In this document: positions 25,067-30,242 of the stretch, one piece after another
Numbering within the stretch: position 1 is the first letter of the stretch
How the letters are laid out: each line of letters begins with the position of its first letter
NCBI GenBank assembly: GCA_028293125.1
Contig: JAQGPJ010000061.1
Location: 124,001 to 188,000, forward strand
Reading direction: 5' to 3'
DNA: 64,000 nucleotides
Source of the DNA: Verrucomicrobiales bacterium
GTDB taxonomy: Bacteria; Verrucomicrobiota; Verrucomicrobiia; Verrucomicrobiales; V1-33
Program-made: the position numbers and the translations under genes
The notes under the pieces: model-generated
What the model saw: only the letters and a program-made list of their open reading frames with translations
The model's database searches: none
What the model was told of the DNA's origin: nothing

Positions 25067-26188
25067 TCAGATCACCACATCCGGGCCGCCCGCGGGTCCG
25101 TCGGACTCCTGGCAGGCGCGCATGTCCGGCTCCGGCAGATGGGTCAGGCGGCGGCGCAGGGTTTCGGCCCGCAGGATGTCGCGCTCCTCGGCGGTGAGTT
25201 TTCTCTGGCTGGCGATCTGGAGATGGGCCGGTTGGATCTCCAGCAGCAGGGTGTCGATCAGTTTGGTCTCCGCCGCTGGAAACACTCCCACATCCGTCCC
25301 CAGCCGCAGCATGGAGAGGTGCGTCAGCGCCTCCTTGCTCTCCATGATGTGGGCGAACCGCAGGGCGGCATAGGCACGGCCGATGTTGTCGCAGACTTTT
25401 TGAGGATTGTCCTCCAGCAGCTTGCGCCGGGCATTGCGCTCGTGAGTGATGATCTGGCGGATCACCTTCTCCAAGCGGGCCAGAATCTCCGCCTCACTGT
25501 CCCCCAGGGTGCGCTGGTTGGATACTTGGAACAGGTTGGACAGCGCCTCCGTGCCCTCGCCATACAGTCCCCGCACCGCCAGGCCGATCTTGTTCGCCGC
25601 ATTGATGATGGAGGTCACCTGGTCGCAGAGCACCAGCGCCGGCAGATGCAGCATGGCGCTGGCCCTCATGCCGGTGCCCAGATTGGTGGGGCAGGCCGTC
25701 AGATAGCCGAAGCGACGGTCCCAAGCGAAGGGCACCTGATCCTCCAGCTCGGTGTCCAGCCGGTCGAGGCCGGCGTGGGCCGCGGTGAGATCAAGGCCTG
25801 AGCGGATGCTCTGCATGCGCAGGTGGTCCTCCTCATTGATCATGATGGAGTAGGACTGATCACGGTTGATCACGGCGGCGCAGCCCCCGGACTTGGCCGC
25901 CTGCTCGCGGGAAATGAGGTGCTTCTCCACCAGCACCTGCTTTTTGATCGCATCCAGATTCGCCAAGTCCTCGGAGAAACAATCCTTCATCACCGACAGG
26001 CTCTCCACTCTTGGCCGGAGCTGCTCCATGATCTCCACCCGGTTCTCCTTTTTGGCCCAGCCGGGAAATGGCGGGCCGTCCAGATTCCGCGCCAGACGGA
26101 TGCGGCTGGTCAGGACGATATCCCGGCAGGGGCCGTCATGCTCCATCCATTCGGGCCGACGGCGCAGGAGGGTGGTGAATTTCATCAT
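25067..26188 (-). CDS. mcsB: Protein arginine kinase McsB
   Basis: A 373-residue ATP:guanido phosphotransferase that phosphorylates arginine residues in proteins. In Bacillus this marks proteins for ClpCP and inactivates CtsR. Family features include LTSRIRLARNLDGPPFPGW, the ATP-binding arginines, and the catalytic-cysteine motif ACPTNLGTGMRAS (Cys166). RGLYGEGTEALSNLFQVSNQ and the downstream ARRKLLEDN are also conserved. It follows mcsA on the same strand, 139 bases after its stop. Neither ctsR nor clpC is adjacent, unlike the Firmicute operon. Two consecutive ATGs (26188, 26185) are possible starts. Confidence 0.95.
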   Translation of the reverse strand: MMKFTTLLRRRPEWMEHDGPCRDIVLTSRIRLARNLDGPPFPGWAKKENRVEIMEQLRPRVESLSVMKDCFSEDLANLDAIKKQVLVEKHLISREQAAKSGGCAAVINRDQSYSIMINEEDHLRMQSIRSGLDLTAAHAGLDRLDTELEDQVPFAWDRRFGYLTACPTNLGTGMRASAMLHLPALVLCDQVTSIINAANKIGLAVRGLYGEGTEALSNLFQVSNQRTLGDSEAEILARLEKVIRQIITHERNARRKLLEDNPQKVCDNIGRAYAALRFAHIMESKEALTHLSMLRLGTDVGVFPAAETKLIDTLLLEIQPAHLQIASQRKLTAEERDILRAETLRRRLTHLPEPDMRACQESDGPAGGPDVVI

Positions 26189-26250
26189 AAATTTGCAGGA
26201 AAGAGAGGGATCAGCAGCTCAAAGCATGGTGGGGAATGGCAGTTTTTCCT

Positions 26251-26270
26251 GTTCTGTTCTGTTCTGTTCT
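26251..26270. repeat. GTTCT pentanucleotide tandem repeat
   Basis: Four perfect GTTCT units lie in the mcsA-mcsB spacer, about 60 bases upstream of the mcsB start. They could change copy number by slippage and alter spacing within the transcript leader. Confidence 0.8.
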
Positions 26271-26327
26271 CCCATTCCAACGCGGGACGGCCCAAGGAAT
26301 GCCGGTCAGGACCCGGATTCCATTCAT

Positions 26328-26831
26328 TCAGACACTCACACGTGAGCGGAGTTTTTTCTCCAAGGAGTTGATTTCAATCTTCAGACGGGCGGCCTCCTCA
26401 AAGTGCTCCTCACCCACGGCGGCATCGAGTTCGGACCGCAGTCTGGCCAGAAGATCCTCCTCGGCTTTGAGTTGGCCGGCATGGGCGGGCACTTTGCCGG
26501 TGTGGCACACCTTCGTGTGCATGGCCTTCAGCAGGCCGTCCATGCCCTCGCCGAACACCGAATAGCACCGGGCGCAGCCCAGCCGTCCGGTTTTGCGGAA
26601 GGTCGTCTGCGTCATCCCGCACGCCCGGCAGGTTTTTTCCTGCGGATGCGTCTCCACGCGCTCGCCGTGGCCGAAACCCAGCAGCATGTCCGCCAGCGCA
26701 AAGCCGGTGGGGTCCGTAACCCCTTTCTCCTTGGCGCAGTGCTCGCAAAGATTGATTTTCTGCATATCCCCCTTGACGATCTGGGTCAGGAAAACAGTGG
26801 CTGTATTTTCGTCGCAAACATCGCACTTCAT
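26328..26831 (-). CDS. mcsA: McsA-like zinc-finger activator of McsB
   Basis: A 167-residue protein with four CxxC-type zinc sites: CDVC near residue 3, CEHC near 30, CRAC near 69 and CARC near 85. The C-terminal UvrB/UvrC motif follows (about residues 125-160; LDAAVGEEHFEEAARLKIEI). McsA binds and activates McsB in Firmicutes, and the order here, mcsA then mcsB, supports that role. The length and Cys spacing match the family. It probably starts a two-gene transcript; the promoter must lie in 26832-27022, which it shares divergently with the MTA phosphorylase gene. Confidence 0.93.
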   Translation of the reverse strand: MKCDVCDENTATVFLTQIVKGDMQKINLCEHCAKEKGVTDPTGFALADMLLGFGHGERVETHPQEKTCRACGMTQTTFRKTGRLGCARCYSVFGEGMDGLLKAMHTKVCHTGKVPAHAGQLKAEEDLLARLRSELDAAVGEEHFEEAARLKIEINSLEKKLRSRVSV

Positions 26832-27022: not shown

Positions 27023-27913
27023 ATGACGTTTTCCCCATCCCCGCCCTCAGATCCCGAACCCGCCATCGGCATTATCGGCGGCAGTGGACTTTACCACATG
27101 GAGGGACTGGACGAAATGCAGGAAATCCAAGTGGACACTCCGTGGGGACCACCATCTGATGCCCTTGTCTCCGGCCGCCTGTCAGGGCGCAAAGTGTTTT
27201 TCCTGCCCCGCCACGCGCGCGGGCACCGGCTGCTGCCCACGGAACTGAATCACCGCGCCAATATCTGGGCGCTGCGGTCGCTGGGCGTGCGATGGATCAT
27301 CTGCGTCACCGCCGTGGGCAGCCTGAAGGAGGAGTACGCCCCGCGGGACATCGTCCTGCCGGACCAGTATTTCGACCGCACCAGCCGGCGGGAGCACCAC
27401 ACTTTTTTCGGTCAGGGCATCGTGGCCCACGTGGGCTTCAGCGATCCCGTGAGCGCCGGCCTGCGCGGCATTCTCGCCAATGTCTGCCGGGGGCAGGGCC
27501 GCCGCATCCACAACGGTGGCACCTATGTCAACATGGACGGTCCCGCCTTCTCCACCCGGGCGGAAAGTCTGGCCAACCGCCGGCTGGGCTTCGATGTCAT
27601 CGGCATGACCAACCTCCCCGAGGCCAAACTGGCCCGCGAAGCGGAGATCGCTCTCTCCACCCTGGCGATGATTACGGACTATGACTGCTGGAAGGTGGAG
27701 GAGGAGCCCGTCAACGCGCAGACCGTCATCGGCCACCTCACCGCCAACGCCGAAGCCGCCAAGGCCATTATCGCCGCTGCCATCCCTCAAATTCCGCAGG
27801 AGCCCAACTGGCCGGAGCACCGGGCGCTGGACATGGCCCTCATCACGGACCAGTCCCTCTGGCCGGCGGAAACCATCGGGCGCCTGCGCCCTATTCTAGC
27901 CCGGTTCCTCTGA
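27023..27913 (+). CDS. mtnP: S-methyl-5'-thioadenosine phosphorylase
   Basis: A 296-residue purine nucleoside phosphorylase family 2 enzyme that splits methylthioadenosine with phosphate into adenine and methylthioribose-1-phosphate, in methionine salvage after polyamine synthesis. GIIGGSGLYHMEGL is the phosphate-binding N-terminus; RHARGHRLLPTELNHRANI follows. NGGTYVNMDGPAFSTRAES and IGMTNLPEAKLAREAEI form the nucleoside site. ITDYDCW, with Asp-Tyr-Asp, suggests preference for adenine (MTAP rather than inosine/guanosine PNP). The start at 27023 is preferred over an ATG at 26990, which would add 11 unrelated residues. Confidence 0.94.
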   Translation: MTFSPSPPSDPEPAIGIIGGSGLYHMEGLDEMQEIQVDTPWGPPSDALVSGRLSGRKVFFLPRHARGHRLLPTELNHRANIWALRSLGVRWIICVTAVGSLKEEYAPRDIVLPDQYFDRTSRREHHTFFGQGIVAHVGFSDPVSAGLRGILANVCRGQGRRIHNGGTYVNMDGPAFSTRAESLANRRLGFDVIGMTNLPEAKLAREAEIALSTLAMITDYDCWKVEEEPVNAQTVIGHLTANAEAAKAIIAAAIPQIPQEPNWPEHRALDMALITDQSLWPAETIGRLRPILARFL

Positions 27914-28013
27914 TATTTTGCTTACCGGCCCCAAAAGGCCGTCCGGGCATACCTTGACAGGCTTGCCACATTCCTTAACGAAACCACCGTTGCCAGGATC
28001 ATTTTCCGCTTTG

Positions 28014-28042
28014 CGTTGCCAGCATCGTCACGGAATTGTCAC
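28014..28042 (+). promoter_or_regulatory. Candidate Pho box upstream of ppk1
   Basis: Three 7-base units are spaced 11 bases apart: CGTTGCC (28014), TCGTCAC (28025) and TTGTCAC (28036), separated by 4-base spacers AGCA and GGAA. This is the geometry of PhoB sites (7-mer direct repeats like CTGTCAT with 4-base spacers). The last unit ends 46 bases before the ppk1 ATG, and a weak -10-like CATAGT lies 8 bases further on (28051). PhoB/PhoR genes are not in the window. Confidence 0.5.
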
Positions 28043-28088
28043 TTGGCCGCCATAGTCCAAGCGCCCGCCCTGGCGCAGGGCTCAAGCC

Positions 28089-30242
28089 ATGATGCTCACC
28101 GCTCTGCCCGACGACACCGATCCCGGTCGCGCCGTCCCCAACCGCAGCATGAAATCCGCCATTGTCGATGGAGTTCCGTTCCGCAGCAAGGAGGTGAGCT
28201 GGCTGTCCTTCAACTCCCGCGTGCTCCAGGAGGCCGACGATCCGGATGTCCCGCTTCTGGAGCGCCTGAAGTTCCTGGGCATCTACTCCTCCAATCTGGA
28301 CGAATTCTTCCGAGTGCGCATCGCCACTCTGCGCCGGCTGGTGCTGGTGGGCAGGGATTACCGCAAGCTGCACATCCCCGACCCCAAACTGACACTGCGG
28401 GAGGCGCGGGCCATCATCAAACGCGATGCCGGTCTCTTCGACCGCATCTACCACGACATTCTCGCCAGTCTCGCCAAAGAGGGAATCTGCCTTATCGAGC
28501 ACACCGAGGTTCCGCGGGCGCTCAAACCCTGGCTGACTGATTACTTCTACGCCAAGGTCCGCCCGCGCATCATGCCCATCATGATCCGGTCCTACAGCCA
28601 ACTGGGCAGCCTGCGGGACCATCCGATGTATCTGGCGGTGGAGATGATGAAGGCAGGCAAAGCGGCCTCAGCCGGCAAAGCCGCCGGCAAGGTGCGCACC
28701 GCGCATGCCCTCATCGAGATTCCCGCCACGGAGCTGCCGCGCTTTGTGGTGCTGCCGGAGCACAAAGGCAAAACCCTGGTGATGTATCTGGATGACATCA
28801 TCCGCTTCGGGCTGCCCAGCATCTTCTCCGGCCTTCCCTTCGACAAATTCGAGGCCTTCGCCATTAAATTCACCCGTGACGCGGAGATGGGAGGATTTGA
28901 GGACGACGTGACGGAAAGCCTCTACGACAAAATCTCCGAGGGGCTGCGCAGCCGCCAGACCGGCCAGGCGGTCCGGATGAACTATGACAGCCGCATCCCG
29001 GCGGCGTTTCTGAAGCTGCTCGTCACCAAGCTGAAGCTGGCGCACGACGACACCCTCATGCCCGGCTTCCGCTATCACAACCGGAAGGACCTCGTGAAAT
29101 TCCCTGCGCCCTCCCGGCTGGAGTATCCGTCGGAATCCCCCCTGCCCCATCCGCGGCTCAGCGGGCAACGCCGGGAAAGTTTCTTCCGCACCCTGCAGGA
29201 CCAGGATCTGCTGCTGCACCTGCCGTGGCACTCATTCAGCCATTTCCTGGACTTCCTCCGCGAGGCCAGCCTGGACCCGCTGGTGGAATCCATTTACCTG
29301 ACCCAGTACCGCCTTGCCGGCCAGTCCTGCGTGGCCCGCGCCCTGATGAACGCCGCCCAGAACGGCAAGGACGTCACGGTCCTCATTGAGCCCCAGGCGC
29401 GGTTCGACGAAAAAAACAACATTGAATGGGCCAACCGTTATCAGCACGCCGGGGTCAAGGTGATTCTGGGCGTGCCCGGCCTGAAGGTTCACGCCAAAAT
29501 GTGCCTCGTGGTGCGCCACGAAGGCAGCACCCACCGCTTCTACAGCGCCATCGGCACCGGCAATTTCAACGAGGAGACCAGCCGCTTCTACACGGACCAT
29601 ATGCTGCTGACCGCGCATCCCGGACTGGGAGCGGATGTGCTGGAGGCCTTCCGCTTCTTCCGCACCAACTGGCAGCCGCCGCGCCTCAGCCACCTCGTGG
29701 CCGCACCCATCAGCCTGCGGACCAGCGTGAAATTTCTGATTCAGAATGAGATCAGCCACGCCAGGCAGGGCAAGGAGGCGGGCATCTTCGTCAAGCTGAA
29801 CAACCTGGCTGACCCCGATATCACGGCTCTGCTCTACGAGGCCAGCCAAGCCGGCGTGCAGGTCCGTTTGATCGTGCGCAGCATGTTCTCGGTGGTCACC
29901 GGCGGCACCGTCAGCAAAAACATCAAGGCCATTGGCATCGTGGACCGGTATCTGGAGCACAGCCGCATCCTTTGTTTCGCCAACGGCGGCAGCCCCAAAT
30001 ACTTCCTCAGCTCCGCTGACTTCCTGCCGCGGAATTTCGACAGCCGGTTCGAGGTGTTGTGCCCGGTCTACGATCCCCTGCTCCAACAGCAGCTGCAGCG
30101 CTGTCTGGACATCCAGTGGGCGGACAACACCAAAGCCCGCGTGCTCGACAAAAAACTGGCCAACCACCGCGCCAAAACCGGTGAAAAGCGCTTCCGTGCC
30201 CAGGAGGAGCAGCGGAAATGGCTTGCCCGGAAGGGAGGATGA
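28089..30242 (+). CDS. ppk1: Polyphosphate kinase 1
   Basis: A 717-residue enzyme that makes inorganic polyphosphate from ATP reversibly, via a phosphohistidine; membrane-associated in known cases. Characteristic text includes WLSFNSRVLQEADDPDVPLL and LGIYSSNLDEFFRVR near the N-terminus. In the first PLD-like catalytic domain, GLKVHAKMCLV holds the phosphorylated histidine. GTGNFNEETSRFYTDHMLLT follows, and the second domain carries YLEHSRILCFANGG. Met21 is an alternative start, but the ATG at 28089 is the first available. It lies downstream of mtnP with a 175-base gap that holds the candidate Pho box, so it is likely separately transcribed and phosphate-responsive. Confidence 0.97.
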   Translation: MMLTALPDDTDPGRAVPNRSMKSAIVDGVPFRSKEVSWLSFNSRVLQEADDPDVPLLERLKFLGIYSSNLDEFFRVRIATLRRLVLVGRDYRKLHIPDPKLTLREARAIIKRDAGLFDRIYHDILASLAKEGICLIEHTEVPRALKPWLTDYFYAKVRPRIMPIMIRSYSQLGSLRDHPMYLAVEMMKAGKAASAGKAAGKVRTAHALIEIPATELPRFVVLPEHKGKTLVMYLDDIIRFGLPSIFSGLPFDKFEAFAIKFTRDAEMGGFEDDVTESLYDKISEGLRSRQTGQAVRMNYDSRIPAAFLKLLVTKLKLAHDDTLMPGFRYHNRKDLVKFPAPSRLEYPSESPLPHPRLSGQRRESFFRTLQDQDLLLHLPWHSFSHFLDFLREASLDPLVESIYLTQYRLAGQSCVARALMNAAQNGKDVTVLIEPQARFDEKNNIEWANRYQHAGVKVILGVPGLKVHAKMCLVVRHEGSTHRFYSAIGTGNFNEETSRFYTDHMLLTAHPGLGADVLEAFRFFRTNWQPPRLSHLVAAPISLRTSVKFLIQNEISHARQGKEAGIFVKLNNLADPDITALLYEASQAGVQVRLIVRSMFSVVTGGTVSKNIKAIGIVDRYLEHSRILCFANGGSPKYFLSSADFLPRNFDSRFEVLCPVYDPLLQQQLQRCLDIQWADNTKARVLDKKLANHRAKTGEKRFRAQEEQRKWLARKGG

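Follow-up and report, generated by a model that had tools for sequence, protein, structure and literature searches.

The PhoB-type PHO box is built, according to a review (PMC4415409), from CTGTCAT repeats forming two half-sites with an 11-nt repeat, it stands before pst, phoBR, transporter and ppk genes, and its consensus differs among species. In Streptomyces, Pho-type PhoP boxes lie before the polyphosphate kinase gene, which is linked there to pst genes (PMC7866108), their consensus being GTTCACC (PMC4415409), and in Bacteroides fragilis ppk, pst and a phosphate permease are listed as PhoB-dependent on the basis of expression, with ppk adjoining the exopolyphosphatase gene in gene number (PMC3547664). 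Pho control of ppk is already established in other phyla. Within the superphylum considered here, Waddlia chondrophila (Chlamydiae) has a PhoB orthologue with a ChIP-Seq motif, which is 21 bp long and AT-rich, and hypothetical proteins account for many of the targets; the authors call for PhoB regulons to be defined elsewhere in the PVC group (PMC4989314). In the open-access library searched, represented mostly by titles and the beginnings of abstracts, no Pho box defined for Verrucomicrobia was found.

Here we describe a site in a 64-kb window (the whole stretch of DNA analysed, 64,000 nucleotides) from a Verrucomicrobiales bacterium, hereafter the host, where a Pho box had been predicted upstream of ppk1. 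The site resembles the PhoB-type box in its two half-sites, its 11-nt repeat and its place before a ppk gene, but the motif reads GTnAC-GAAAn-CGTCAC, with the upstream half mostly inverted in the clade, instead of CTGTCAT repeats. The Streptomyces boxes belong to another phylum and have another consensus, and ppk and pst genes are unlinked in the host. Unlike in B. fragilis, PhoB dependence is deduced here from sequence, and the host genome, despite ppk1 and two PPK2 genes, gives no match to PF02541 (exopolyphosphatase Ppx-GppA). The Waddlia motif is unlike the host box. Overall, the site is very likely a genuine Pho box through which a PhoB-like regulator would control ppk1 jointly with pst, phoU, PiT and porin genes, and phosphate starvation probably governs polyphosphate storage in the host, as it does in some other bacteria.

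A two-unit box in the mtnP-ppk1 gap

Table 1. Features of the ppk1 locus (window coordinates) and phosphate-gene sites elsewhere in the host genome; bit scores of sites refer to the pstS-promoter motif.
Feature	Location	Strand	Remarks
mtnP, S-methyl-5'-thioadenosine phosphorylase, upstream gene	27023..27913	+	TIGR01694 296 bits, cut-off 274.85
First 7-mer of the original prediction, CGTTGCC, outside the box	28014..28020	+	2/7 vs CTGTCAT; -8.2 bits
Pho box, 22-position motif match	28024..28045	+	19.2 bits, best in window
ppk1, polyphosphate kinase 1	28089..30242	+	TIGR03705 663.2 bits, cut-off 465.85; alternative start 28149
DUF47/PiT (PF01384) operon	motif upstream		26.4 bits
Porin_O_P gene (phosphate porin)	motif upstream		21.9 bits
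pstS2	motif upstream		17.0 bits
phoBR	motif upstream		16.1 bits
phoU1	two upstream sites		16.5 and 11.8 bits

The 29-mer CGTTGCCAGCATCGTCACGGAATTGTCAC matches window positions 28014-28042 exactly, and the box that it carries sits within the gap between mtnP and ppk1 (Table 1). The core, GTCAC-GGAATT-GTCAC, spans 28027-28042, with half-sites at 28027-28031 and 28038-28042 and an 11-bp step between them, and 46 bases separate the end of the site (28042) from the ppk1 ATG at 28089, in agreement with the predicted distance to the polyphosphate kinase start. The ppk1 product is a full-length TIGR03705 match above the curated cut-off. Homology to the PPK1 models begins at residue 31 of the reading from 28089; the start codon is uncertain, with a possible alternative in the in-frame ATG at 28149. 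For mtnP, the tabulated start was guessed from codon usage and the open reading frame list has 26990. A McsB-McsA protein-arginine kinase pair adjoins mtnP at 25067-26831 on the minus strand.

The original prediction had described three 7-mers with 11-base spacing. The units at 28025-28031 and 28036-28042 do form a true 11-bp repeat, matching CTGTCAT at 4/7 and 5/7 positions, whereas the upstream 7-mer, with its 2/7, is unsupported: the clade motif described below scores -8.2 bits in its register vs 19.2 bits in the true one. The three-unit box was rejected, and the ppk1 site is a two-unit box.

By bare pattern counting, the repeat is just mildly unusual. The pattern GTNAC-N5-YGTCAC occurs once in the window vs 0.13 expected, with at least one occurrence in 10 of 100 shuffles, and GTCAC-N6-GTCAC with one mismatch allowed gives 5 matches vs 2.85 expected, which is too weak for such simple patterns to serve as proof of a site.

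To the eye, TTGTCA (28036-28041) looks like a -35 hexamer, and the repeat could be read as part of an ordinary constitutive ppk1 promoter. This is extremely improbable, given that no sigma-70-like hexamer pair was found in 27850-28250 and that the entire 16-bp pattern, beyond one hexamer, recurs at phosphate genes. An RNA element was likewise rejected, since Rfam matches nothing in the window except one tRNA, far from the site.

A motif from pstS promoters and its sites in the host genome

The motif was trained on pstS promoters of relatives (24 sequences), with ppk1 and the window sequence left out of the training set. These 24 derive from the pstS loci of 29 relatives after removal of L114, whose upstream region lies inside a coding region, and of L121-L124, which belong to the same genus as L120; in alignment A1, L107 and L116 were additionally omitted as near copies. 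Four public loci, L008, L009, L010 and L011, are apparent copies of G003, G004, G002 and G009, respectively, and each was counted once. L009 and L011 come from public metagenome-assembled genomes titled Akkermansia muciniphila, although this species assignment seems doubtful; their ppk1 products are 75% and 61% identical to that of the host.

Among all dyads of the form 4+n+4 in 26 promoters, the top one was GTGA-N9-CACA, present in 12 of them, as compared with a maximum of 6 for any dyad in 20 simulated sets. Expectation maximization on the 24 promoters yielded the consensus TGTGACGAAAnCGTCACA, with a site of at least 18.7 bits in 20 of them and no good site in L100, L101, L104 and L108. The original prediction had proposed scoring the site with a PhoB motif derived from the genome's own promoters, and the pst-promoter motif of the clade does match it: the ppk1 site tops the 64-kb window, the runner-up reaching 15.7 bits, and the five neighbouring non-phosphate promoters scored in the window all stay at or below 1.8 bits. 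The maximum over 60 simulated Markov-1 windows of 64 kb was 18.4 bits, so that none of the 60 attains 19.2. Profile R1, run in cmsearch with filters off as a second implementation, likewise placed the ppk1 site at the top of the window (E 0.16); applied to the whole genome, it gave 8 places at E<=10 among the 150 of 1145 candidates scored, ppk1 being absent from them. The simulated windows contained 13 positions of at least 16 bits (60 x 64 kb), corresponding to ~22 per genome of such size. The score alone is therefore no proof, and place and conservation share the argument.

In the host genome, pst operons and phoU genes are each present twice, alongside one phoBR-like pair. The pattern GTNAC-N5-YGTCAC, composed after inspection of pstS2, phoU1 and ppk1, has 29 + 29 matches genome-wide (36 distinct places) vs 14 + 12 for the reversed control. 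Of the distinct places, 28 were scored in context, the remaining 8 all having GC-rich centres; nine reach at least 16 bits, and five of these nine precede phosphate genes, namely the DUF47/PiT operon, the Porin_O_P gene, ppk1, pstS2 and phoBR. The PiT, porin and phoBR sites (Table 1) had not been seen when the pattern was composed and are thus independent of its choice. The pstS1 operon (L093:9445-10368, minus strand, contig C88) shows no box, with 2.5 bits in the 300 bp scanned, and the upstream regions of two PPK2 genes, when scanned, had a box at neither.

The remaining four places of at least 16 bits are one before a CotH/LTD gene (18.0 bits), two between less telling neighbours (21.3 and 19.9 bits) and one before a gene of the proline racemase/hydroxyproline family. 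The last of these sites (contig C66:41106-41121; L192:2507-2522) is, with 27.3 bits, the top pattern match of the genome, and it lies 62 bp upstream of a gene without known phosphate role. Pho-box-like sites also occur near genes of large secreted proteins with CotH, lamin-tail or Ig domains (L188:1-2556, L190:2531-3569, L193:495-2511), which are possibly unrecognised phosphorus-scavenging proteins.

Pattern matches with GC-rich centres (GTGACGCCGGCGTCAC, GTGACACCCATGTCAC) were treated as an interspersed repeat of another kind and excluded; they reach at most 3.0 bits where scored, and several of them are clustered at 45-56 bp spacing. This intergenic repeat contains palindromes (GTGACGCCCATGTCACCGGTGACATGCAAACTTT is one), frequently in groups of two or three at 45-56 bp from each other, it mimics the Pho-box pattern, and it is found on contigs C13, C46, C51, C55, C56, C96, C108 and C118 (loci L204-L207).

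Candidate regulator and orientation of the half-sites

A PhoB-like regulator (contig C103:10861-11595) adjoins a PhoR/PnpS-like kinase, and its own promoter carries the box. The best model for the regulator is PhoB TIGR02154 (243.8 vs an equivalog cut-off of 296.2, that is, below it), and for the kinase PnpS/PhoR, also below the equivalog cut-off. The string TRTLDTHVKRLREKL in the DNA-binding domain is one that we take to resemble the E. coli PhoB recognition helix. Of 57 genomes, 53 contain a match to the regulator (E<=1e-60), all but two of them a single one, and in several (e.g. G047, G050, G056) the match lies within a few kb of phoU/pstS matches on the same contig.

The phoB promoters were kept out of motif training and served for validation. 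A site of at least 16 bits is present in 23 of 30 held-out phoB promoters vs 2 of 348 same-length segments from the same loci, and in 20 of the 30 the best site ends 42-58 bp before the gene match. The predicted Pho-box reading is supported by the recurrence of this motif, both at phoBR, pstS2, phoU1, PiT and porin genes of the host and at phoB promoters throughout the order. For Verrucomicrobiales, this provides a Pho motif that can be used in searches and has been checked on held-out phoB promoters.

Concerning orientation, the ppk1 site presents GTCAC twice on one strand (head-to-tail), whereas the majority of clade sites are inverted. The half-sites of the matrix show more inverted-repeat (0.89) than direct-repeat symmetry (0.68), although both-strand training favours symmetry. 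Excluding L233 (1.2 bits), the upstream half-site is GTG-type in 12 of 20 sites at pst and in 19 of 29 at phoB, and the direct-repeat form occurs in 5 of 20 and 8 of 29, respectively. The clade box is GTnAC-N6-GTCAC, mostly inverted, and not the E. coli consensus; the mainly inverted form is the motif's least expected property, and raises the question of how an OmpR-family regulator reads such boxes.

These features bear on a reading in which the box is real and phosphate-linked, but its reader is a regulator distinct from PhoB that acts as a symmetric dimer. The nearly palindromic clade consensus TGTGAC-N6-GTCACA, the excess of inverted symmetry and the frequency of GTG-type upstream halves speak for it. 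It is nevertheless unlikely, considering that nearly all phoB promoters carry the box at a near-fixed distance, as autoregulation predicts, that among direct-repeat offsets from 7 to 13 offset 11 alone is strong, that direct-repeat forms exist at pst, phoB and ppk1, and that the central A-run is asymmetric. PhoB is favoured as the box reader because the box stands before phoBR and because of the kinship of the regulator, and activation under low phosphate because it is reported for ppk in other bacteria (PMC4415409, PMC7866108, PMC3547664). Most likely, phosphorylated PhoB would bind both half-sites in the mtnP-ppk1 gap and, once bound, would recruit RNA polymerase to ppk1 at low phosphate; polyphosphate would then be made from phosphate imported by the induced transporters. 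PhoB binding at the site would be expected to alter ppk1 transcription, probably by activation. Several results weigh against this reading: the regulator scores below the PhoB equivalog cut-off, a sigma-70-like core promoter was not found at 27850-28250, ppk1 is missing from the places given by R1 in the whole genome, chance positions of at least 16 bits are expected, and the box is patchily conserved at ppk1.

More tentatively, the Verrucomicrobiales operator may be lineage-specific (TGTGAC-GAAAn-CGTCACA, with the upstream half usually inverted) and read by a symmetric or orientation-tolerant dimer of the regulator, the ppk1 site being a direct-repeat version and the regulon of the order being readable by motif. 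We consider this combined proposal speculative and on balance doubtful; if true, the phosphate regulon of the order could be listed by motif as phoBR, pst, phoU, PiT, porin, ppk1 and perhaps the secreted CotH/LTD proteins.

Patchy conservation at ppk1

Within the genus, the four readable ppk1 promoters score 19.2 (host), 28.2 (G002), 11.8 (G004) and 8.3 bits (G003) in an alignment that is gapless at the box; two of these members have a strong box and the other two a decayed one. In a further member, G001, a ppk1 match was not found. Weak boxes are also seen at phoB in G004 and G003 (13.7 and 10.3 bits, respectively). In the rest of the family, G005, from a sister genus, has 15.2 bits and six others stay below 8, leaving 6 of 11 family members without a ppk1 box. 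In family f3, G044 reaches 17.0 bits at ppk1, and in 7 of 10 members the stretch scanned before ppk1 lacks a box; in families f2, f4 and f6, the box is found in none of 8 ppk1 upstreams, the highest score being 6.4 bits. Conservation of the ppk1 box beyond the genus is patchy. The analysis predicts polyphosphate synthesis in the genus to be under the control of phosphate starvation, and ppk1 to have been repeatedly gained by or lost from the regulon.

The patchy distribution, together with the ~22 positions of at least 16 bits expected per genome, speaks for an idle, good-looking match in a GC-rich intergenic gap. Such a chance origin is nonetheless quite improbable, since no simulated window reaches the score of the site, the promoter belongs to a phosphate gene, and the box is aligned in genus members, one of them with the highest score given above. 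Upstream regions of ppk1 with at least 14 bits amount to 4 of 29 vs 7 of 282 background segments (p 0.013), a background that is not restricted to promoters.

In two f3 genomes, G022 and G038 (L075:475-1504 and L074), a 20.7-bit box precedes a ROK glucokinase-family gene located directly upstream of ppk1. Counting such ROK operons as ppk1 units gives 6 of 29 vs 5 of 282 (p 0.0001), in a comparison made post hoc and against the same background, not of promoters only; this enrichment also speaks against chance. The ROK gene and ppk1 under one box possibly reflect a link between polyphosphate and glucose.
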